Source: Polyangium mundeleinium (lineage in GTDB: Bacteria > Myxococcota_A > Polyangia > Polyangiales > Polyangiaceae). Taken from it: a stretch of 64,000 nt of DNA. Below, piece by piece: positions 15,121 to 45,470 of this stretch (the first letter of the stretch is position 1; each line of letters starts with the position of its first letter). The position numbers and the translations under genes were made by a program. The stretch is from NCBI RefSeq assembly GCF_028369105.1, contig NZ_JAQNDO010000001.1, positions 9,146,501 to 9,210,500 on the forward strand, in the 5' to 3' direction. Under the pieces are notes generated by a model. That model was not told the origin of the DNA. It saw only the letters and a list, made by a program, of their open reading frames with translations, and did no database searches.

Positions 15121-17430
15121 ATGGCCAGGCATGACGTTTCTGGGCTCCGCGACGTGGGGCTGCGGATTGGTTTGTCCGATGAGGGGGGCGGGGCCATGGC
15201 CGCCGCGCTGGAGGCGCTCGCCGCGCAGAGGGTCGCCGATCGCGATTTCTGCGTGCAGACGCTGCCGCGCGTCTCGCGGACGTTCGCGCTCTCGATCCTG
15301 TCGTTGCCCGAGGCGCTCTCCGAATCCCTCTGCGCCGCGTATCTCCTGTGCAGGGTCGTCGACAGCATCGAGGACGCGAATCCGATCCCGCCCGAGACCC
15401 GCGTATCGCTCTTCGACGCGTTCGACGCGCTCATGCGGGGCGAGGCGCGGTCTTTGTCCGAATTCGAGGCTCGGTTCGCGGACGAGGCCCTCGGCATGGC
15501 CGAGGCCGATCGCGCGCTCTGCAAGGGGGCGGGCGCGGTGTTTCGCGTGTTCCGCGGCCTGCCCGCCGCCGATCAGGAGGCGATCCGGCCGTGGGTGCTG
15601 GAGATGAGCCAGGGGATGCGCGAGTACGCGGGGCGCGCGGACGCCGAAGGAAAGACGCGCATCCGCGACGTGCGCGACCTCGAGCGATATTGTTATTTCG
15701 TGGCCGGCACGGTGGGCGAGCTGCTCACCTCGCTCTTCGAGCGCACGGTGCCCGGGGCGAGCGAGGAGGTTCGCAAGGCGGCCCGGAGCCGCGCGACGCG
15801 GTTCGGGCTCGGCCTGCAGATGGTGAACGTGCTGAAAGACGTCGCCGAGGATCTCGATCGCGGCGCGTGTTTCTTGCCGGAAGACGTGCTCGCCCGGCAC
15901 GGGGTTCGTCGGGACGTCCTGCTCGCGCCCGAGGCGCGCGCGGGTGGCCTCGCGGCCGTGTCCGAGGTGTGCGCGATCGCGCGGGGGCACCTCGACGCCG
16001 CGGTCGAGTACACGCTTTGCTGGCCCGGCCGCGAGGGCGCGGAGGTGCGCGCGTTCTGCGCGGTGCCGCTCGCGCTGGCGATCGCCACGCTGCGCGAGGT
16101 GGAGCGGGGCGATAACACGCTCGTCCGCGGGCGCGAGCCCAAGATCGACAAACGCCTCGTGGCCGAGGTTCTCGCCGGCGCGCGGCGCGCGGCCGAGAGC
16201 GACGCGGCGCTCAACGCCCTGTTCACCCGCGCGGCGGAGGCCGGGCCGAGCGCGCCCGCGGGCGTGTCCGGGCGCGGGGCGATGCCGCTGCTCCGCGCCC
16301 GGAGGCCGCCGGTGCCACCCGAGCGGCGCGCGTCGATGACGGTGATCCGCGGCGGCGCGGACACGAAAAAGACCTCGGGCGAGGCATCTCGGAGCGACGC
16401 GCGGACCCGCGAGGGGCGCGTGCTCGTCACGGGCGGCGCGGGGCACCTCGGGCAAAACCTCGTGCGGCGCCTCGTCGCCGAGGGCAAGGAGGTCCGCGTG
16501 CTCGTGCGGGGCGCGCGAGGCGCTTCGGCGCTCGCGGGTTTGCCCGTCGAGGTCGTGACCTGCGACGTGCGTGACGCGGACGCGCTCGGCGCGGCGACGC
16601 GCGGCGTGACGGAGGTGTATCACGCGGCGGCCATGGTGGCCGAGGGCGACGAGCAGGCGTTTTTCGAGACGAACGTGCTCGGGACACGCGCGCTCCTCGG
16701 CGCGTGCCGCGAGGCGGGCGTGCGGCGGGTCGTCGTGACGAGCTCGCTCGACGCCGTGCGGTACGACGACGCCCGCGGCGCGCCGATCGACGAGGCGACG
16801 CCGCTCGACCCGTTCTCCGCGCATTCGCCGCACGCGCGGACGAAGGCGCTCGCGGAGCACGAATGCTTGAAGGCCGTGGCCGACGGGCTCGACGTGGTCG
16901 TGGTCGCGCCGACGACGCTGGTCGGGCCCTTCGACGAGCGGCCGAGCGCGATCGGGCGGGCGCTCGTGGATCACGCGAACGGCAAGCTCCGCGCCTTCGC
17001 GCGCGGCGCGCTCCTGCTCACGTCGACGCGCGACGCGGTGGAGGCCCACCTCGCGGCGATGCGGAGCGGGCGCAAAGGGCAGAAATACGTGATCACGACC
17101 GAGCTCGTGTCGATCGACGATCTGCTCTCGTTCTTCGAGGAGGCGAGCGCGCGTCGCCGCCCGCCGTTCGCCGTGCCGGCCTTGCTCGCGCGGACGTCCC
17201 TCGCGCAGAAGCTCGCAGCCGCGCGGATGCTCGGAGGCGAACGCCCGCCCGGCGCGCCCGCGCCCGCGTCCTCGCCGCGGCGCGCGGATACCTCGAAGGC
17301 GGAGCGCGAGCTCGGCTTCGTGCCCACGTGCGTGCGGAGCGCGATTTACGACGCATACGCCGATTTCTTCCGTCGGGCGCTCGTGCCCGAGGGCCCCGCG
17401 TCGCGCGGGGCCCACATCACGCGGCCGTGA
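15121..17430 (+). CDS. Fusion of squalene/phytoene-type synthase and SDR epimerase/dehydrogenase
   Basis: 769 residues. Residues ~30-365 are a head-to-head prenyl synthase: SRTFALSI (52-59), first Asp motif DSIED (81-85), MSQGMREY (162-169), ERYCYFVAGTVGELLTSLF (188-206) and second Asp motif NVLKDVAEDLDRG (236-248). The YCYFVAG and MSQGM stretches point to squalene synthase rather than phytoene synthase. A Pro/Arg-rich linker (~375-430) joins an extended SDR domain with Rossmann motif TGGAGHLG (437-444), as in HpnA or 3-beta-hydroxysteroid dehydrogenase/C4-decarboxylase proteins. The usual YxxxK is HARTK (571-575), so the catalytic Tyr appears replaced by His. ATG 15121 is preceded by GGGAGCGG. 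The next gene, 134 bases on, acts on squalene, supporting one pathway. Confidence 0.85.
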   Translation: MARHDVSGLRDVGLRIGLSDEGGGAMAAALEALAAQRVADRDFCVQTLPRVSRTFALSILSLPEALSESLCAAYLLCRVVDSIEDANPIPPETRVSLFDAFDALMRGEARSLSEFEARFADEALGMAEADRALCKGAGAVFRVFRGLPAADQEAIRPWVLEMSQGMREYAGRADAEGKTRIRDVRDLERYCYFVAGTVGELLTSLFERTVPGASEEVRKAARSRATRFGLGLQMVNVLKDVAEDLDRGACFLPEDVLARHGVRRDVLLAPEARAGGLAAVSEVCAIARGHLDAAVEYTLCWPGREGAEVRAFCAVPLALAIATLREVERGDNTLVRGREPKIDKRLVAEVLAGARRAAESDAALNALFTRAAEAGPSAPAGVSGRGAMPLLRARRPPVPPERRASMTVIRGGADTKKTSGEASRSDARTREGRVLVTGGAGHLGQNLVRRLVAEGKEVRVLVRGARGASALAGLPVEVVTCDVRDADALGAATRGVTEVYHAAAMVAEGDEQAFFETNVLGTRALLGACREAGVRRVVVTSSLDAVRYDDARGAPIDEATPLDPFSAHSPHARTKALAEHECLKAVADGLDVVVVAPTTLVGPFDERPSAIGRALVDHANGKLRAFARGALLLTSTRDAVEAHLAAMRSGRKGQKYVITTELVSIDDLLSFFEEASARRRPPFAVPALLARTSLAQKLAAARMLGGERPPGAPAPASSPRRADTSKAERELGFVPTCVRSAIYDAYADFFRRALVPEGPASRGAHITRP

Positions 17431-17564: not shown

Positions 17565-20500
17565 ATGAATGGGAAGGCAGAGAGGATCGACTACGACATC
17601 GCCGTGATCGGCGCAGGTCCGGTCGGATGCGTGTCGGCGCTCGCGTTCGCCAAGCGAGGCGCGAGGGTGCTCTTGCTGGAGTCGAACCCGCGCGCGGTCG
17701 AGCGGCTCGCCGGCGAGTGGCTGCATCCGCCCGCCGTGGACATCCTCCGCGGGCTCGGTGTGGATCTGGCGGCCGGCGCGACGCACGAGACGGGGCGCGG
17801 ATTCGTCCTGTACCCCGACGACGGCACGAACCCGATCGCGCTCCCGTATCGCGCCGGCAACGTCGGCCACGCAATCGAGCACGTCCGGCTCGTCGAGCGG
17901 CTGCGCGAGCGCGTGATGGGCGAAGCGCTCATCGATTACCAGCCCGGATCCCGCGCGACGAGCATCGTCGATCAAACGCTCTCGTACCAGCAAAAGGGCT
18001 TCGGGGAGCGCATGGTGCGCGCCGGGCTCGTCGTGGGCGCGAGCGGCCGGAGCGGCGTGGCGCACGCGGCGCTCTCGATCGATCGGAGCGCGGCGACGTA
18101 TTCGCGCATGGCGGGGCTCTTGCTCGAAGGCGTGCGCATGCCGCTCGAAGGGCACGGCCACGTGTTCCTCGGCGGCCCTGGGCCGGCGCTCGCGTATCGG
18201 CTCGACGATCGGCACGTGCGGCTTTGCCTCGACGTGCCTCTCTCGATGCGCGTGCAGCGCAGCAAGGCCGCGACGCTCTGGGACGCGTTCTCGCCCGTCC
18301 TGCCCGAGGCGCTGCGGGGCGCGCTCCGCAAGGCGCTCGAGAGCGGCGAAATCGCATGGGCGACGAACCAGATCCGCCCGCGCGTCGATTACGGCCGCGA
18401 GGGGCTCGCGCTCGTCGGCGACGCGGTGGGCCACCACCACCCGCTCACGGCGCTCGGCATGACGCTCGGCTTCCAGGACGCGATCGCGCTCTCCGAGGCG
18501 AAAAACTTCCGCGCCTACAGCCGCGGGCGCACGATCCAGAGCCGCGCGCCGGAGATGCTCGCGGTCGCGCTCTACGAGGTCTTCGCCGACACGTCGGACG
18601 AGACGGCGGCGATCCGCAGCGGGATCTACGACCTCTGGCGCGAGCAACCCGCGGAGCGGATGCGCACGATGGGCTTCCTCTCGTGCGAGGATACGAACCC
18701 GCTGCATTTCGGCGGATCGTTCCTGAAAGCGCTGCTCCGCGCGTCGAGCGCGATCGTGCGCGACGGCGTGGTGCGGCGGGATCCGCGGCACGCGGCCGAG
18801 GTCGCGAGTGAGCTCGGCATGCGCATCCGCTGGCTCATGCGGGCGACACTGCACCTCACGCCGGCCGAGCCCACGCAGAATTTTCCTCGCTCGGCCGAGG
18901 ATCGATATGGCGCAGCGCTGAAGGCGGCGGCCGGGCGCGCGGAGGTGCTGGAGCACCCGGCGGCCGAACGCGCGACGCGGCTCGGCAAGGCGCGGCTCGA
19001 GCCGCGGACGGCGCTCGCGCGGGGCGTGCGCGCGCTCGTGGCCGAGCAGGCCGAAGACGGGTCGTGGGAGGGCGAGGTCATCTGGAACCCGATGCTCGCG
19101 GCCCAGTACGTCATGGCGTGCCACGTGATGGGCTTGCCGATCGATCCGGTGCGTCGGGAGCGGCTCTTGCTCCAGTTCGCGCGGACGCGTTTGCCGGATG
19201 GAACGTGGGGCATGCACGAGCTCTCGCAGCCCTACCTGTTCGTCACGACGCTCGTGTACGTGGCAGCGCGCCTGCTCGGCGTGCCTGCGGAGGATCCGCT
19301 CGTCGCCAAGGGTCTCGCGTTCCTCCGAAAGGAGGGCGGCGCGGCGGCGATCCCGAGCTGGGGCAAACTCTGGCTTGCGCTCTGTGGCCTGTATGGCTGG
19401 GAGGGCGTGCCGAAGGTATTGCCCGAGGCGTGGCTCCTCCCGCGATCGTGGGCGCTGCACCCGTCGAAGTATTATTGCCACACGCGGTACATCTACCTCG
19501 GCATGTCGCTGCTCGTGTCCGCGCGGCGGAGCGCGCCCGAGACGGCGATCACGCAGGCGCTGCGGAACGAGCTTTATCCGGGCGGGTTTGGCGCGGTCGA
19601 TTTCGCGGCGGCGCGGCGGCAGCGGCGCGCGGCGGAGCTGCAAACGCCGCCGAGCCTGGCGCTCGAATTCGCTTACCAGGCGTTCGAGGTCGTCGATCGG
19701 GTGCGGACGCCGAAATCACGGGCAGGTCTGCTTTCGGCGCTCCGGGAAGAGGTGCGTTACGATCTGCGCGCGAGCGGGCACACCGCTTTGTCGCCGGTGA
19801 GCGGGCTGCTCGGGATCCTGGCGCTGTGGATGAACGATCCGAAGGACCCGGACGCGCTGCTCGCGCTGGATCGGTTCGAGGGCTGGATCTGGGAAGACGA
19901 CACGGACGGCGTGCGGATCGCCGGGGCGCGCAGCGCGTCGTGGGATACGTCCTTCGCAGCGCAGGCGCTCGTGGCCGCATCGAAGCACGTGGACGTCGCC
20001 GAGCCGCTCACGCGCGCGGATCGATTCCTGGAGGACCAGCAGATCCGCGAGGCCATCGGAGACGCGGCGGCGCACGATAGGCTCGATCCGCGCGGCGGAT
20101 ATTGCTTCGCCGGGGTCTGGCACGGCTGGCCGGTGAGCGATTGCACGGCCGAGGCAATGCTCGCGCGGCTGGAATCACCGCATGCGCGCGCCTCGGCCGA
20201 GGACATGGCAGCAGCGGCGCGGTTCGTGCTCCGGTGCCAGAATCCAGACGGCTCGTTCGGCAGCTACGAGGCGCGACGCACGCGCGTGCCCCTCGAATGG
20301 CTGAACCCCGCGGAGATGTTCGGCGATTCGATGAGCGAAGCAGCGTACGTCGAATGCACGGCCTCGTGCATCGCAGCGCTCGCGGCGTTCCAGACGCATC
20401 ACCCGGAGATCCTGCGGAGCGAGGTCGACACCGCCATCCGCCGCGCCGCAGCGAGCCTGCGTGCGCTCCAGCACGCGGACGGGTCGTTCCCGGCAGCCTG

Positions 20501-20975
20501 GGGCGTATGCTTCATCTATGGCACGATGTTCGGCGTACGGGGCCTGCTCGCCGCGGGCGCCCCGCCGCACGACCACGCCATTCGCAAAGCATGCGCGTGG
20601 CTCAAGGCACGGCAACGCCCGGACGGCGGCTGGGGCGAGCATCACGAGAGCGCCATCGGCGGGCAATACCGCGAAAACGATCGGAGCCAGGTCATCCAGA
20701 CAGCCTGGGCCATCACAGCGCTGCTCGAAGCCAAAGATCCGGACTGGGACGCCATCGATCGCGGCGCGCGCTTCCTCGCCGCCGCCCAACGCGACGACGG
20801 CACCTGGCCCGCAGAAGAGCCGGCCGGTCTCTTCTTCCGCACAGCGCTCTTGCATTACACGCTGTACCGAAGTTACTTCCCGGTCGCCTCCCTCGGCCTC
20901 TACGAAACCCGCAGAGTCGAGCGCGAAGCCTGGGGACGCGAGCGCACAGCCGCATTCGAGCCAGCGTTCGGTTGA
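17565..20975 (+). CDS. Fusion of squalene monooxygenase and oxidosqualene cyclase
   Basis: 1136 residues. Residues ~8-430 are an FAD-dependent squalene-epoxidase-type enzyme: GAGPVG (16-21), RLAGEWLHPPAVDILRGLG (47-65, the GELLQP-like motif) and GDAVGHHHPLTALGMTL (285-301, the signature FAD/substrate motif). Residues ~470-1130 are a full-length triterpene cyclase with several QW-type motifs (such as QNPDGSFGSYE, QRPDGGWGE, QRDDGTW), YCHTRYIYLGMS (~637) and the catalytic SDCTAE motif (858-863, acid Asp859). DCTAE marks oxidosqualene cyclases; squalene-hopene cyclases use DxDDTA. A single polypeptide could therefore epoxidise squalene and cyclise 2,3-oxidosqualene. ATG 17565 has a weak GAGG upstream. 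There is no signal peptide; membrane association is expected from both families. Confidence 0.88.
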   Translation: MNGKAERIDYDIAVIGAGPVGCVSALAFAKRGARVLLLESNPRAVERLAGEWLHPPAVDILRGLGVDLAAGATHETGRGFVLYPDDGTNPIALPYRAGNVGHAIEHVRLVERLRERVMGEALIDYQPGSRATSIVDQTLSYQQKGFGERMVRAGLVVGASGRSGVAHAALSIDRSAATYSRMAGLLLEGVRMPLEGHGHVFLGGPGPALAYRLDDRHVRLCLDVPLSMRVQRSKAATLWDAFSPVLPEALRGALRKALESGEIAWATNQIRPRVDYGREGLALVGDAVGHHHPLTALGMTLGFQDAIALSEAKNFRAYSRGRTIQSRAPEMLAVALYEVFADTSDETAAIRSGIYDLWREQPAERMRTMGFLSCEDTNPLHFGGSFLKALLRASSAIVRDGVVRRDPRHAAEVASELGMRIRWLMRATLHLTPAEPTQNFPRSAEDRYGAALKAAAGRAEVLEHPAAERATRLGKARLEPRTALARGVRALVAEQAEDGSWEGEVIWNPMLAAQYVMACHVMGLPIDPVRRERLLLQFARTRLPDGTWGMHELSQPYLFVTTLVYVAARLLGVPAEDPLVAKGLAFLRKEGGAAAIPSWGKLWLALCGLYGWEGVPKVLPEAWLLPRSWALHPSKYYCHTRYIYLGMSLLVSARRSAPETAITQALRNELYPGGFGAVDFAAARRQRRAAELQTPPSLALEFAYQAFEVVDRVRTPKSRAGLLSALREEVRYDLRASGHTALSPVSGLLGILALWMNDPKDPDALLALDRFEGWIWEDDTDGVRIAGARSASWDTSFAAQALVAASKHVDVAEPLTRADRFLEDQQIREAIGDAAAHDRLDPRGGYCFAGVWHGWPVSDCTAEAMLARLESPHARASAEDMAAAARFVLRCQNPDGSFGSYEARRTRVPLEWLNPAEMFGDSMSEAAYVECTASCIAALAAFQTHHPEILRSEVDTAIRRAAASLRALQHADGSFPAAWGVCFIYGTMFGVRGLLAAGAPPHDHAIRKACAWLKARQRPDGGWGEHHESAIGGQYRENDRSQVIQTAWAITALLEAKDPDWDAIDRGARFLAAAQRDDGTWPAEEPAGLFFRTALLHYTLYRSYFPVASLGLYETRRVEREAWGRERTAAFEPAFG

Positions 20976-23764: not shown

Positions 23765-24158
23765 TCGCGTCCCGCGCGCGGCGGAAACGAGCGAGCATCT
23801 GCTCGCGCCCGAAGCTCGGATCGTCGCTCGCGGGATCCTCGATGGGCACGTAATAGTGCTGCTTGTCGCTCAGGCTCACGGGACAAACCTCCTCGTCGCA
23901 GAGGCGGATCACCGTGTCCACCGAGTCGGGGTCGATCGTGCCCACGTATTTCGACGTTTGTCCGGTAAGGTCGATGCCGATCTCCCGGCACACCTCGATC
24001 GCCCACGGGTTCACGTGCGAAGGCTCGCTGCCCGCGCTCTGGACGCGGATGTCGCCGCCGAGAATGGTCCGCCCGAGCCCCTCGGCCATCTGGCTGCGCG
24101 CGGAGTTTCGTACGCACAAGAAAACGATGGACCGCATCTTCGGACGTTGGAACGTCAT
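23718..24158 (-). CDS. arsC: Arsenate reductase, low-molecular-weight phosphatase family
   Basis: 146 residues with the LMW-PTP signature FLCVRNSARSQMAEG near the start (nucleophile Cys15, Ser/Arg loop), 'GSEPSHVNPWAIEVCREIGI' and the Asp-containing 'YYVPIEDPASDDPSFGRE'. The family reduces arsenate to arsenite using thioredoxin, or acts as a tyrosine phosphatase. The resolving Cys pair of the S. aureus type is only partly evident (DEEVCPV). The ATG overlaps the SelB stop as ATGA and GAGGGGG lies just upstream, so it is probably co-translated with selB. No arsR or arsB gene is nearby. Confidence 0.8.
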   Translation of the reverse strand: MTFQRPKMRSIVFLCVRNSARSQMAEGLGRTILGGDIRVQSAGSEPSHVNPWAIEVCREIGIDLTGQTSKYVGTIDPDSVDTVIRLCDEEVCPVSLSDKQHYYVPIEDPASDDPSFGREQMLARFRRARDAIKEQFESLAAILDRT

Positions 24159-26104
24159 TTCCCCCTCACCCGGCTGTCATCGGCCTCGCGCCGCGTGACG
24201 CCCTCTCGGTCGAACAATTCGAGCAGCGGAATCGCCTGCCGCCGCCCGAGGCCCGATAGATCCTTGAAATCGGCGATCGACATGCGGCCGTGCTTTTCGA
24301 GGTGCGCCTTCACCTTGGCCCGGAGCGCGTCGATGTCGGCCCGGTAAAACCAGAGTTCGCCAGCGTGCGTCGCGTGGCCCTCGCGCACGAGCTTCGCCAG
24401 GATCGCCTTCACTTCCTTGGGCGAAGCGCCCGAGGCCTCCTTGACGCCGAACTCGGTGATCCCCTTGAGCTGCGCCTTCTCCAGCGCCGTGAGCGCCGCG
24501 CCGACCGCGCCGACCGCGCCCGAGGCCGACGCGGCCGTGATCTGCGGGGCGCGCACGACGTCGCCCTCGACGACGATGGGCTCGCCGGCGACGCTGCCGC
24601 TCTTCGAAGCCGCGAGCTTGATGATCTCGTCGGCCGCCTCGGCCCCGGTCCGCGCGGCGAGGCGCGCGCGCAAGGTTTCGAGGACCATGCCACGATCGAG
24701 CGGGTTCTTCTTTTGATGCGCGGCGACGAGCCCACGCGCCTCCACGGCGAGCTCGACGAGCGCAGCCCGAGGCACCCAGCCGAGGCGTTTGATGCGCGCG
24801 AGCTCACCCTTGTCGCCGAGCTTGTCGGCCGCGCGTTCGAGCTCGGCCGCGGGCAAGGAGAACCGCGAGGGCAAGACGTCGCGCGGGAGCGGGCGCGGCG
24901 AGGATTCGAGGGCGAGCGCGCGCATGACCGCCTGGGAGTCGCGCGAGACGAAGAGCGCTTCGAGGACGGCGAGGCGCGCGGCGCGGCCGCGTTTGCGTAG
25001 GCTCTGCGGCGGGCGCGCGTCGAGGACCTCACCGCCGCCAAGGACGGCGCCCGCGGGGCCGTCGACGTCCGAGCCGCGGAGGACGAGCCGATCCCCGCCG
25101 ACGACGGCGAGCGCGTCGGCGATGCGCAGCCGGGCGAGGCGGCGGCCGTCTTCGAGGGGCTCGCCGAGCAGGTCGAGCTTGCCCGCGGAGCGCGCGGTGC
25201 CGATGTACACGGAGACGCTCATGCCGCTGCGCACGGGGGCCGTGGCGCGGAGCGAGACATCGATGCGGCGCGTGGGGACGACGCTGGGATCGTCGGTGAC
25301 GAGGTCGCCGCGGTGCACGGATTCGAGCGGCACCCCCGCGAGGTTCAAGGCGAGGCGGGTCGGCGCCTCGGCGAGGTCGACGGCGCGATCGTGGATGTGC
25401 AGGCCGCGCGCGCTCGTCTTGTGGACCTCGCCCTCGGCGCTGCGCTCGCCGGCGCGGCCGGTGCCGACGACGAAAAGAGGCGCGCCGAGCGGGATCTTTC
25501 CCTCGACGAGCGTGCCCGTGACGACGGTGCCCGCGCCCCGCACGGAGAAGACGCGGTCGACGCCGAGGCGCGCGCGCGGCGCGGCGGCGGGCGGCGGGAG
25601 CGCGATCAAGGCGCGCCGGACGGCGTCACGGACCGCATCGAGGCCCTCGCCCGTGCGCGCGGAGCAGAGCACGACCTCGGCCTGCATGCGGCCGGCGACG
25701 AGCTCCACGGCCTCGTCGCCGGCGAGGCCCGCGAGTTCCTCGCCCACGCGATCCGTCTTCGTCACGACCACGACGGCGCGACGAATCCCGAGCAGCTCGC
25801 AAGCGGCGACGTGCTCGCGGGTCTGCGGCATGACGCCCTCGTCCGCAGCGACGACGAGCATCACGACCTCCATGCCGATCGCGCCGGCGATCATGGTGTG
25901 CACGAGGCGACGATGGCCCGGCACGTCGATGATGCTGACCTCGATGCCGTCGCCCAGGTTCCAGGGCGCGAAACCGAGCTCAATCGTGATGCCGCGGCGT
26001 TTTTCCTCGGGCAGACGATCGGTGTCGATGCCCGTCAGGGCGCGGACCAGGGTGGTCTTGCCGTGATCGACGTGACCCGCAGTGCCGAGGACGAAGCGGC
26101 GCAC
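24155..26104 (-). CDS. selB: Selenocysteine-specific elongation factor SelB
   Basis: 649 residues, close to the family's length. It delivers Sec-tRNA to UGA codons that carry a SECIS element. G1 GHVDHGKT (10-17), G3 DVPGH (60-64) and G4 TKTD (115-118) are intact. Beta-barrel domains II-III follow, and the last ~250 residues carry winged-helix elements (GITEFGVKEASGASPKEVKA; FKDLSGLGRRQAIPLLELFD) that would read the SECIS hairpin. The tRNA-Sec gene lies 47 bases away, divergently transcribed. selA and selD are not in the window. Confidence 0.93.
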   Translation of the reverse strand: MRRFVLGTAGHVDHGKTTLVRALTGIDTDRLPEEKRRGITIELGFAPWNLGDGIEVSIIDVPGHRRLVHTMIAGAIGMEVVMLVVAADEGVMPQTREHVAACELLGIRRAVVVVTKTDRVGEELAGLAGDEAVELVAGRMQAEVVLCSARTGEGLDAVRDAVRRALIALPPPAAAPRARLGVDRVFSVRGAGTVVTGTLVEGKIPLGAPLFVVGTGRAGERSAEGEVHKTSARGLHIHDRAVDLAEAPTRLALNLAGVPLESVHRGDLVTDDPSVVPTRRIDVSLRATAPVRSGMSVSVYIGTARSAGKLDLLGEPLEDGRRLARLRIADALAVVGGDRLVLRGSDVDGPAGAVLGGGEVLDARPPQSLRKRGRAARLAVLEALFVSRDSQAVMRALALESSPRPLPRDVLPSRFSLPAAELERAADKLGDKGELARIKRLGWVPRAALVELAVEARGLVAAHQKKNPLDRGMVLETLRARLAARTGAEAADEIIKLAASKSGSVAGEPIVVEGDVVRAPQITAASASGAVGAVGAALTALEKAQLKGITEFGVKEASGASPKEVKAILAKLVREGHATHAGELWFYRADIDALRAKVKAHLEKHGRMSIADFKDLSGLGRRQAIPLLELFDREGVTRREADDSRVRGK

Positions 26105-26151: not shown

Positions 26152-26246
26152 GGAAGCGCGCGGTCGGCTGGTGCCACCCCCGGTCTTCAAAATCGGTGCG
26201 GGGCAGTTCCGCTGTCCTGGGCAGGTTCGATTCCTGTGCGCTTCCG
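26152..26246 (+). tRNA. selC: tRNA-Sec (anticodon TCA)
   Basis: The acceptor arms GGAAGCG (26152-26158) and CGCTTCC (26239-26245) pair, with G as the discriminator base. The anticodon loop CTTCAAA carries TCA at 26187-26189. A long extra arm follows, and the T-arm reads GGGCAGGTTCGATTCCTGT, close to bacterial selC. The 95-base length and long acceptor/variable arms fit tRNA-Sec and not a serine tRNA. The 3' CCA is not encoded (TCG follows). It lies beside selB. Confidence 0.95.
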
Positions 26247-39796: not shown

Positions 39797-42526
<2,730 letters not shown>

Positions 42527-42631
42527 ACGCTAGGAATGTAAGACAAGGTGGGCCAATAATTCGGCATCTGGAGGGCGCGACTTGGGTGGAGGACCGCAGG
42601 CAATTGCCGCAGGCCCTCCGGTCGGCTATGA

Positions 42632-43199: not shown

Positions 43200-43484
43200 G
43201 GGCCGTTTTGATCGCGCGCGCGTGCAGATGGCGTGCGTGTGGCGAGCTCCGACGGCCTTCGTGACGGAACGCGAAGAGGAAAAACTCGCGAATCGGCTTT
43301 GCGCCCCTTCTGGTTGAAGGCAGGGGGGCGCCGTCGGTCCGCACGTGTCACGGCAGCGTCGATCGAAAGACGACGCGCGAGATCGTGGATTTTCGCCCTG
43401 TCGGGGCGATCAAGGTGTCGGCTCTCGCGGCGCGAAAGGAGCGCCACGCGGGCAGCACCGTGCCTGGAAAGAAAGAGAAGAAAC
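43200..43484. other. Intergenic region before the triple-DsbA gene
   Basis: 285 bases with no gene or RNA recognised. It presumably carries the promoter of the next gene; no convincing -35/-10 pair is visible by eye. An AGAGAAG sequence just before ATG 43485 can serve as the ribosome binding site. Confidence 0.5.
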
Positions 43485-45470
43485 ATGAACAAAGGAACCG
43501 CCATCGTCGGCTTCCTTCTCTGCTTCATGGCAGGGATGGCGCTGATGTGGGGCATCGATCGCGGCGCCGGTGGCCACACGGCCAGCGCCGAAGCGACGCA
43601 GGAGTACGTCGCCGGCGGGACGTGGGATCACAGCGACGCGTCGGTCCCCGTCTCGTCGAAGGATCCCACGTGGGGCAGCCCGAACGCGCCCGTCACGCTG
43701 GTGCTCTTCAGCGACTTCGAGTGCCCCTTCTGCAGCAAGGTGGAGACGACGTTGACGCAGCTCCGCGAGGCGTACGGCCCGCAGAAGCTCCGCATCATCT
43801 GGAAGTCGAACCCGCTGCCCTTCCACAAGAACGCGCGTCCCGCGTCCGTCGCGGCCGAGACCGTGTTCCGCATCAAGGGCCCCGAGGCCTTCTGGAAGTT
43901 CCACGAGGTGGCGTTCCAGAACCAGCGCGCCCTCACGCCCGAGAACTTCGAGCAGTGGGCCGTGCAAGCAGGCGTGGACAAGGCCAAGTTCAAGGCCGCC
44001 TACGACAAGCAGGAGTTCGCCGCGAAGGTGGACGCCGACCTCGCCGCCGGCAAGGCCGCGGGCGTCTCCGGCACGCCGGCAGCGTTCATCAACGGCATCC
44101 TGCTCAGCGGCGCGCAGCCGATCGACAAGTTCAAGTCCGTCATCGACGAGCAGCTCAAGGCCGCCGACGCCGCGATCAAGGCCGGCACGAAGCCGGAGAA
44201 GGTCTACGCCAAGCTCTCGCAGGAGAACAAGGCGAAGGCGCCTCCGCCGGCAAACCGCGACCAGGCGCAGCAAGAGGACAAGACCGTCTGGAAGGTGCCC
44301 GTCGGCACGTCGCCCGCGAAGGGCCCCGAGACGGCGCTCGTGACGATCGTCGAGTGGTCCGATTTCCAGTGCCCCTTCTGCAGCCGCGTGGTCCCGACGC
44401 TCGACGAGGTCGTCAAGACCTACGGCGACAAGGTCCGCCTCGTCTGGAAGGACAACCCGCTGCCGATGCACCCGCGCGCCGAGCCGGCCGCGGAGCTCAC
44501 GCGTGAAGCCCGCGCCCAGAAGGGCGAGGCAGGCTTCTGGGCCGCCTACGATCTGCTCTGGAAGAACCAGCAGAAGCTGACCGACGACGATCTCCTCGGC
44601 TACGCCAAGGAGCTCGGCCTGAACGTCGACAAGGTGAAGACCGCGATCCTCGACAAGAAGTACGGCGCCGAGATCACGGCCGACCAGGACCTCGCCGACG
44701 AGCTCCAGGCGAGCGGCACGCCGCACTTCTTCATCAACGGCCGTCGTCTCGTCGGCGCGCAGCCGATCGAGAAGTTCAAGGCCGTCATCGATGAGGAGAT
44801 CAAGAAGGCGCAGGACCTTCTCTCGAAGGGCGTCGCCGCGAAGGACCTCTACAACGAGATCATCAAGGACGGCAAGACGCCGCCGCCGCCCGAGAAGAAG
44901 ACGGTCGACGTGGCCCCCGCCGACTCCGCCTGGAAGGGCAGCGACAAGGCGAAGGTCGTGATGCAGATCTTCAGCGACTTCGAGTGCCCCTTCTGCAAGC
45001 GCGCAGAGGACACGGTCGCCCAGGTCGAGAAGGCCTACGGCGACAAGGTGAAGATCGTGTGGCGCCACAAGCCGCTGCCGTTCCACAAGAGCGCGATGCC
45101 CGCCGCCCTCGCAGCCGAGGAGGCCAAGAAGCAGAAGGGCAACGAGGGCTTCTGGAAGATGCACACCGCGCTCTTCAAGGGCGCCGGCACGCCGGACGCT
45201 TTCGCCCGCACGACGCTCGAGAAGTACGCCGAGGAGCAGGGTCTCGATCTCGGGAAGTTCAAGTCCGCCCTCGACTCCGAGGCGCACAAGAAGTTCATCG
45301 AGAGCGAGAGCGCCGTGGCCGACAAGGCCGGCATCAGCGGTACGCCCGGCTTCCACATCGCAGCCGCAGGCAAGACGGAGGGCTACTTCATCAGCGGCGC
45401 CCAGCCGTTCCCGAAGTTCAAGAAGCTGATCGATCTCGTCATCAAGGAGAGCGGCGCCGCAAAGAAGTGA
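43485..45470 (+). CDS. Membrane-anchored protein with three DsbA-like thioredoxin domains
   Basis: 661 residues. An N-terminal membrane helix (6-24, IVGFLLCFMAGMALMWG) leads into three thioredoxin_4/DsbA modules. Each has CPFC (80-83, 296-299, 501-504), a conserved LPFH/LPMH insertion, and a cis-Pro loop SGTP (195-198, ~410-413, ~634-637). Short Lys/Pro linkers join the modules. The domains should face the periplasm and oxidise or isomerise disulfides. Single DsbA domains are the norm, so three in one chain is unusual. Cys-rich secreted proteins elsewhere in the window (MopE types) are plausible clients (inference). A textbook terminator follows. Confidence 0.9.
   Translation: MNKGTAIVGFLLCFMAGMALMWGIDRGAGGHTASAEATQEYVAGGTWDHSDASVPVSSKDPTWGSPNAPVTLVLFSDFECPFCSKVETTLTQLREAYGPQKLRIIWKSNPLPFHKNARPASVAAETVFRIKGPEAFWKFHEVAFQNQRALTPENFEQWAVQAGVDKAKFKAAYDKQEFAAKVDADLAAGKAAGVSGTPAAFINGILLSGAQPIDKFKSVIDEQLKAADAAIKAGTKPEKVYAKLSQENKAKAPPPANRDQAQQEDKTVWKVPVGTSPAKGPETALVTIVEWSDFQCPFCSRVVPTLDEVVKTYGDKVRLVWKDNPLPMHPRAEPAAELTREARAQKGEAGFWAAYDLLWKNQQKLTDDDLLGYAKELGLNVDKVKTAILDKKYGAEITADQDLADELQASGTPHFFINGRRLVGAQPIEKFKAVIDEEIKKAQDLLSKGVAAKDLYNEIIKDGKTPPPPEKKTVDVAPADSAWKGSDKAKVVMQIFSDFECPFCKRAEDTVAQVEKAYGDKVKIVWRHKPLPFHKSAMPAALAAEEAKKQKGNEGFWKMHTALFKGAGTPDAFARTTLEKYAEEQGLDLGKFKSALDSEAHKKFIESESAVADKAGISGTPGFHIAAAGKTEGYFISGAQPFPKFKKLIDLVIKESGAAKK

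Follow-up and report, generated by a model that had tools for sequence, protein, structure and literature searches.

The squalene monooxygenase (SQMO) and oxidosqualene cyclase (OSC) of Methylococcus capsulatus have been described as MCA2872 and MCA2873 (PMC4919349, PMC10070321), and the human SQMO, SQLE, terminates in a helical membrane-associated domain (PMC6327030). Sandaracinus amylolyticus produces lanosterol and zymosterol (PMC4919349), and cholesterol production has also been reported for this species. Most Osc proteins of the Polyangiaceae and Sandaracinaceae have been read as lanosterol synthases, with that of Polyangium placed sister to those of the Sandaracinaceae; fusion is unmentioned in that study (PMC12004948). 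The Methods of Brown 2023 (PMC10070321) state that 'fused SMO/OSC homologs' were trimmed ahead of tree building. A search of the open-access literature found no description, count or assay of an SQMO-OSC fusion and no sterol data for Polyangium, and within that literature the remark in the earlier note on this DNA that no natural example has been characterised holds. The locus described here, from the soil myxobacterium Polyangium, encodes this sterol-initiating enzyme pair as a single protein.

The SQMO-OSC reading frame and its distribution

The features of the locus, which lies in a 64,000-nucleotide stretch of DNA (the window), are listed in Table 1 together with two sets of genes from relatives. 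Analysis of the SQMO-OSC frame revealed a coding-type codon-position GC content (0.72/0.52/0.87). Pfam placed FAD_binding_3 at residues 10-310 of the protein, SE (squalene epoxidase, PF08491) at residues 171-389 (E 1.6e-23; 83.6 bits against a gathering score of 20.1), SQHop_cyclase_N at residues 486-779 (E 3.4e-46) and SQHop_cyclase_C at residues 790-1114 (E 1.6e-56). The earlier note had read both enzymes from one frame, and this frame is indeed open throughout, with both domains complete. The domain limits given there (approximately 8-430 and 470-1130) were correct to within a few residues, and the signatures were located at residues 16-21 (GAGPVG), 285-300 (GDAVGHHHPLTALGMT) and 857-863 (VSDCTAE). 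Structure prediction, which had been proposed as a check, gave an AlphaFold2 model (23 aligned sequences, mean pLDDT 83.7) with two confident domains and a disordered stretch between them at residues 431-476. The arrangement of the domains relative to each other carried no confidence in this model (pTM 0.60, linker pLDDT <50). Two helices (residues 379-404 and 407-428) closed the SQMO domain immediately before the linker and, in the model, occupy the place of the membrane-associated helical domain of SQLE.

The same stop-free frame was present in all six Polyangium genomes examined (90-98% identity), and the fusion was kept in more distant Myxococcota at 46-64% identity. A search for the same domain order, also proposed earlier, found it in 20 of 290 genomes sampled from the class, each with the full fusion in a single stop-free frame; one more ended at a contig edge, and 120 of the 290 had some match at E 1e-30. 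A sample of the phylum (284 genomes) added two fusion genomes from other classes (G385 and G396), and the fusion is common to approximately two dozen genomes overall. The chance that an assembly or sequencing error erased a stop codon separating two neighbouring genes is vanishingly small, as the frame recurs in independent assemblies of many species at 46-98% identity; its presence in 6/6 Polyangium genomes and in relatives rules this explanation out, and nothing was found in its favour. Within Polyangium, dN/dS was low in the SQMO (0.05-0.17), the linker (0-0.11) and the OSC (0.06-0.10), which indicates that all three parts are maintained by purifying selection.

Table 1. Features of the Polyangium sterol locus (positions in the window) and related genes in other genomes (locus and position)
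Feature	Position	Strand	Evidence or remark
Squalene synthase + SdmB/3bHSD-like SDR fusion gene	15121..17430	+	ORF, NCBIfam, Pfam; alternative TTG start 15073
Squalene synthase domain (SQS_PSY)	15241..16185	+	Pfam; Asp-rich motifs DSIED and DVAED both intact
SDR domain	16417..17379	+	Best NCBIfam model SdmB, under cut-off; YxxxK Tyr replaced by His
SQMO-OSC fusion gene	17565..20975, stop included	+	ATG start, 1136 aa, frame without internal stop
SQMO domain, residues 1-430	17565..18854	+	Pfam, PDB, AlphaFold model, fold search
GxGxxG FAD motif, GAGPVG	17610..17627	+	Motif inspection, alignment
DG-motif position, VVGASGRS, Asp replaced by Ser	18030..18053	+	Alignment; trait of main fused clade
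GD motif GDAVGHHHPLTALGMT, intact	18417..18464	+	Alignment
Interdomain linker, residues 431-476, disordered (46 residues)	18855..18992	+	pLDDT <50; dN/dS 0-0.11
OSC domain, residues 477-1130	18993..20954	+	NCBIfam, Pfam, PDB, AlphaFold model, fold search
Catalytic motif VWHGWPVSDCTAE	20115..20153	+	Asp as proton donor; human positions 449 and 453 occupied by His and Val
Damaged fused SQMO of Sandaracinaceae	L052:9653-13108; L055:5666-8083; L012:7989-11384	-; +; +	
SQMO-X-SQS	L052:4997-8473; L054:6408-9824; L013:12475-15822; L022:1132-4563	-; -; +; +	

Identity of the two domains

The best PDB match of the FAD part was human SQLE (6c6n, 1.7e-28); the second-ranked flavoprotein reached 2.7e-7. 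Foldseek against the PDB also placed human SQLE first among flavoproteins (TM 0.84), above halogenases and PqsL. These rankings put SQLE ahead of the halogenases and hydroxylases, which answers the objection that the N-terminal part might be an unrelated FAD enzyme; a halogenase or hydroxylase identity was ruled out, and the initial assignment to squalene epoxidase is borne out by both sequence and fold. A GEWLHPPA motif was also intact in this domain.

Flavoprotein monooxygenases usually have an Asp in the DG motif. An alignment showed that this Asp was replaced by Ser, Gly, Ala or Thr throughout the main clade of fused SQMOs, and that it was retained by four fusions branching outside that clade (L010, L092, L122 and L123) and by most SQMO-X-SQS proteins (described below). 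On alignment evidence, its absence would count against SQMO activity. The position varied (D/E/S) among the bacterial SQMOs compared, and L061, a stand-alone SQMO and the sole SQMO found in genome G040, has the same Asp-to-Ser change; the residue is thus no clean family-defining mark, and its replacement need not abolish function. In human SQLE the Y195F substitution removes >90% of activity (PMC6327030). The fusion has Phe at the position equivalent to human Tyr195, a residue shared by nearly all of the bacterial SQMOs in the alignment and therefore a property of the group and no mark of fusion; human Gln168 was His.

The cyclase part matched human lanosterol synthase in the PDB (1.2e-127), and human OSC was first overall in the Foldseek search (TM 0.84). 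The best NCBIfam model, TIGR03463 (2,3-oxidosqualene cyclase; E 4.8e-198), scored 659.4 bits, under its cut-off of 851, whereas TIGR01787 (squalene/oxidosqualene cyclase) passed with 471.8 against 322.7 bits, and so the fusion OSC is filed only in the wider OSC class. A hopene cyclase was ruled out by the TIGR01507 score, which was below cut-off (261.8 against 431.1 bits), and by the presence of DCTAE where hopene cyclases have DxDD. The reading of the C-terminal part as a triterpene cyclase with SDCTAE was accordingly upheld by NCBIfam and the PDB, and can be narrowed to an OSC. The motif WHGWPVSDCTAE contained the catalytic Asp and Val453 (human numbering), with His at 449. Val at position 453 leads to lanosterol by a rule tested in PMC4919349, under which lanosterol would most likely be the product of the fusion OSC. 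Genome G048 is probably that of Sandaracinus amylolyticus, and its fused OSC was its only OSC match; if the identity is right, the sterols of that species imply that the fused cyclase would be active there.

Neighbouring genes and fused sterol enzymes of relatives

A gap of approximately 135 bp separates the SQMO-OSC gene from a second fusion gene upstream, which encodes squalene synthase and an SDR (SQS-SDR). This fusion went unnoticed in the earlier note, as did the recurrence of fused sterol enzymes. The SDR part scored 251 bits against a cut-off of 600 for the SdmB model, and its catalytic Tyr was His (SPHARTK, window 16825-16845) in 6/6 Polyangium but Tyr in nearly all relatives; for these reasons it is called SdmB-like only. 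In Polyangium, the ordinary function of the SDR may have disappeared together with the demethylation genes. No close homologue of SdmA (Rieske) was found in the genome (best match 34% over the Rieske half), in keeping with the published finding that in most Polyangium the cyclase step is the only one present (PMC12004948). No second SQMO or triterpene cyclase homologue was found in this genome either, the other three matches being weak and the best of them an aromatic hydroxylase. As the fusion contains the sole SQMO and the sole cyclase found, lanosterol would most likely be made from squalene by the fusion alone. The HMG-CoA reductases sit elsewhere in the genome, and the one checked had no prenyl synthase fused to it.

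Elsewhere in the window, a SelB elongation factor gene (24155-26104, -) neighbours a predicted selenocysteine tRNA on the opposite strand (26152-26246, +). The window also encodes a protein with three tandem DsbA/thioredoxin-like stretches (43212-45467, +) and a single chain with two protein kinase domains (39800-42529, -).

Domain mapping and Pfam analysis of the sterol loci of relatives revealed further fusions. HMGR-FPPS fusions were found in L009 and L015, HMGR-SDR fusions in Sandaracinaceae (for example L052 and L054) and SQS-SDR fusions in Polyangium, L015, L088 and L089. A single 1579-codon frame of L014 (948-5684, +) encoded four isoprenoid/sterol enzymes as HMGR-FPPS-SQS-SDR; its segment between HMGR and SQS is a polyprenyl (FPP) synthase, distinct from the X of SQMO-X-SQS. 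In L092 (6328-7893, -; G143) squalene synthase was followed by polyprenyl synthase, the reverse of the L014 order, in a frame that reaches the contig end. SQMO-X-SQS proteins were encoded by L013, L022, L052, L054 and L057, and also by L016, L019, L020 and L096, which have a separate OSC. A profile alignment matched X to the C-terminal OSC half (hhalign probability 99.1%), and the best PDB match of X was squalene-hopene cyclase (8e-15), with the DCTAE acid lost. X therefore looks like a decayed cyclase, which suggests that SQMO-OSC-SQS proteins may formerly have existed. Enzyme fusion thus recurs in the sterol pathways of these bacteria, and the other fusions, several of them longer than SQMO-OSC, seem to be unstudied.

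Both SQMO-OSC and SQMO-X-SQS were present in SANDARACINACEAE. Relative to the Polyangium domains, the fused SQMO of this family was 41-49% identical and the OSC 60-62%. Its motifs were damaged, with GASIAG at GxGxxG and PPLP, PQLT or GPSL at GD/HPLT, whereas the second SQMO of the same family keeps them intact. A pseudogene was considered for the fused SQMO of Sandaracinus; the dN/dS of 0.04 between two close Sandaracinus-type genomes (a single pair) indicates strong purifying selection and argues against plain decay, and a structural role in the Sandaracinaceae is plausible.

In the OSC tree, 20 main-clade fusions grouped together (94/89), and L010, L092 (from G143, of another family), L122 and L123 fell outside this clade. 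L010 is a MAG labelled Chromatiales USCg_Taylor which carries an SQMO-OSC fusion, and its OSC stood beside that of the gammaproteobacterial MAG L017; the fusion in this gammaproteobacterial bin reflects either horizontal transfer or mis-binning. The trees need 3-4 changes, which means that the fusion either arose several times or is old and was lost in places. A broader reading, which we hold to be unlikely although worth stating, is that the multi-enzyme polypeptides of the Polyangia (HMGR-FPPS-SQS-SDR, SQS-SDR, SQMO-OSC and SQMO-X-SQS) would form a membrane assembly handing on intermediates, with SQMO-X-SQS derived from an ancestral SQMO-OSC-SQS and the fused SQMO reduced, in some lineages, to a mere scaffold for the cyclase.

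Proposed mechanism and comparison with known systems

We infer enzyme activity, a lanosterol product and membrane co-location for the fusion protein, and consider it likely that the SQMO-OSC gene encodes a bifunctional enzyme taking squalene to lanosterol with both domains together on the membrane. The N-terminal FAD domain would epoxidise squalene to (3S)-2,3-oxidosqualene, which the C-terminal domain would cyclise to lanosterol. OSCs are monotopic membrane enzymes that draw their substrate from the membrane. As the flexible 46-residue linker begins right after the helices that correspond to the membrane-associated domain of SQLE, the two domains probably share a membrane patch in a 1:1 ratio, and the epoxide could reach the cyclase by short-range lateral diffusion. 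Tying two membrane-facing enzymes at their membrane side gives such co-location; direct channelling of 2,3-oxidosqualene does not follow from it and, the linker being flexible, can only be conjectured. Together with SQS-SDR, the fusion would allow two polypeptides to take FPP to lanosterol.

It is distinctly unlikely that the fused SQMO is instead a dead or altered flavoprotein that serves the cyclase as membrane anchor or scaffold while another enzyme epoxidises squalene. Such a role would fit the missing DG-motif Asp of the main-clade fusions and the Sandaracinaceae, whose fused SQMO is both damaged beside an intact second copy and less conserved than the OSC. However, Polyangium has intact GxGxxG and GD motifs in an SQMO under purifying selection, and the Asp-to-Ser change is shared with the only SQMO found in G040. 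Since no backup SQMO was found in the Polyangium genome, activity is the simpler reading there. Separation of the two domains into individual proteins, by proteolysis of the linker or from an internal start, is more improbable still: the linker is disordered in the model and conserved GTG/ATG codons occur near residues 398-461, but inspection of these internal starts found no convincing ribosome-binding site, the linker is under purifying selection and the fusion has been retained across deep divergence.

A bifunctional SQMO-OSC would unite two sterol-committing steps, including the oxygen-requiring one, in one protein. It would allow the channelling of a reactive epoxide to be tested in a natural protein, would supply triterpene engineering with an off-the-shelf part and, as a rare marker, would help to trace how sterol genes moved among bacteria and possibly reached early eukaryotes. 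With the wider set of fusions, assembly-line sterol synthesis in bacteria becomes testable.

The enzymes are known; the fused architecture is a real and uncharacterised new arrangement of them, already visible in public genomes. It is not unique to this genome and not unrecorded, as the homologs of Brown 2023 (PMC10070321) have the same architecture by description and are undescribed, uncounted and unassayed in its main text. The SQMO domain shares with the human/yeast enzyme (SQLE/ERG1, 6c6n) the whole-length fold, the FAD motifs, HPLT..GMT and the C-terminal helices. It differs from human SQLE in sequence (approximately 22% identity by structural alignment), in having Phe and His for Tyr195 and Gln168 and Ser for the DG Asp, and in a C-terminus that runs on into the cyclase. 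The OSC domain shares both toroid domains, SDCTAE and the Val453 type with human lanosterol synthase (1w6k) and the OSCs of Methylococcus and myxobacteria, but its N-terminus is attached to the SQMO. MCA2872 and MCA2873 of M. capsulatus carry out the same two steps from neighbouring genes with consecutive locus tags, but as two polypeptides. Natural fusions that join consecutive partners are likewise known from the sterol and terpene routes, namely Cyp51-ferredoxin in M. capsulatus (PMC13277303) and class I/II diterpene synthases in bacteria (PMC11469919), but these involve other enzymes and steps.
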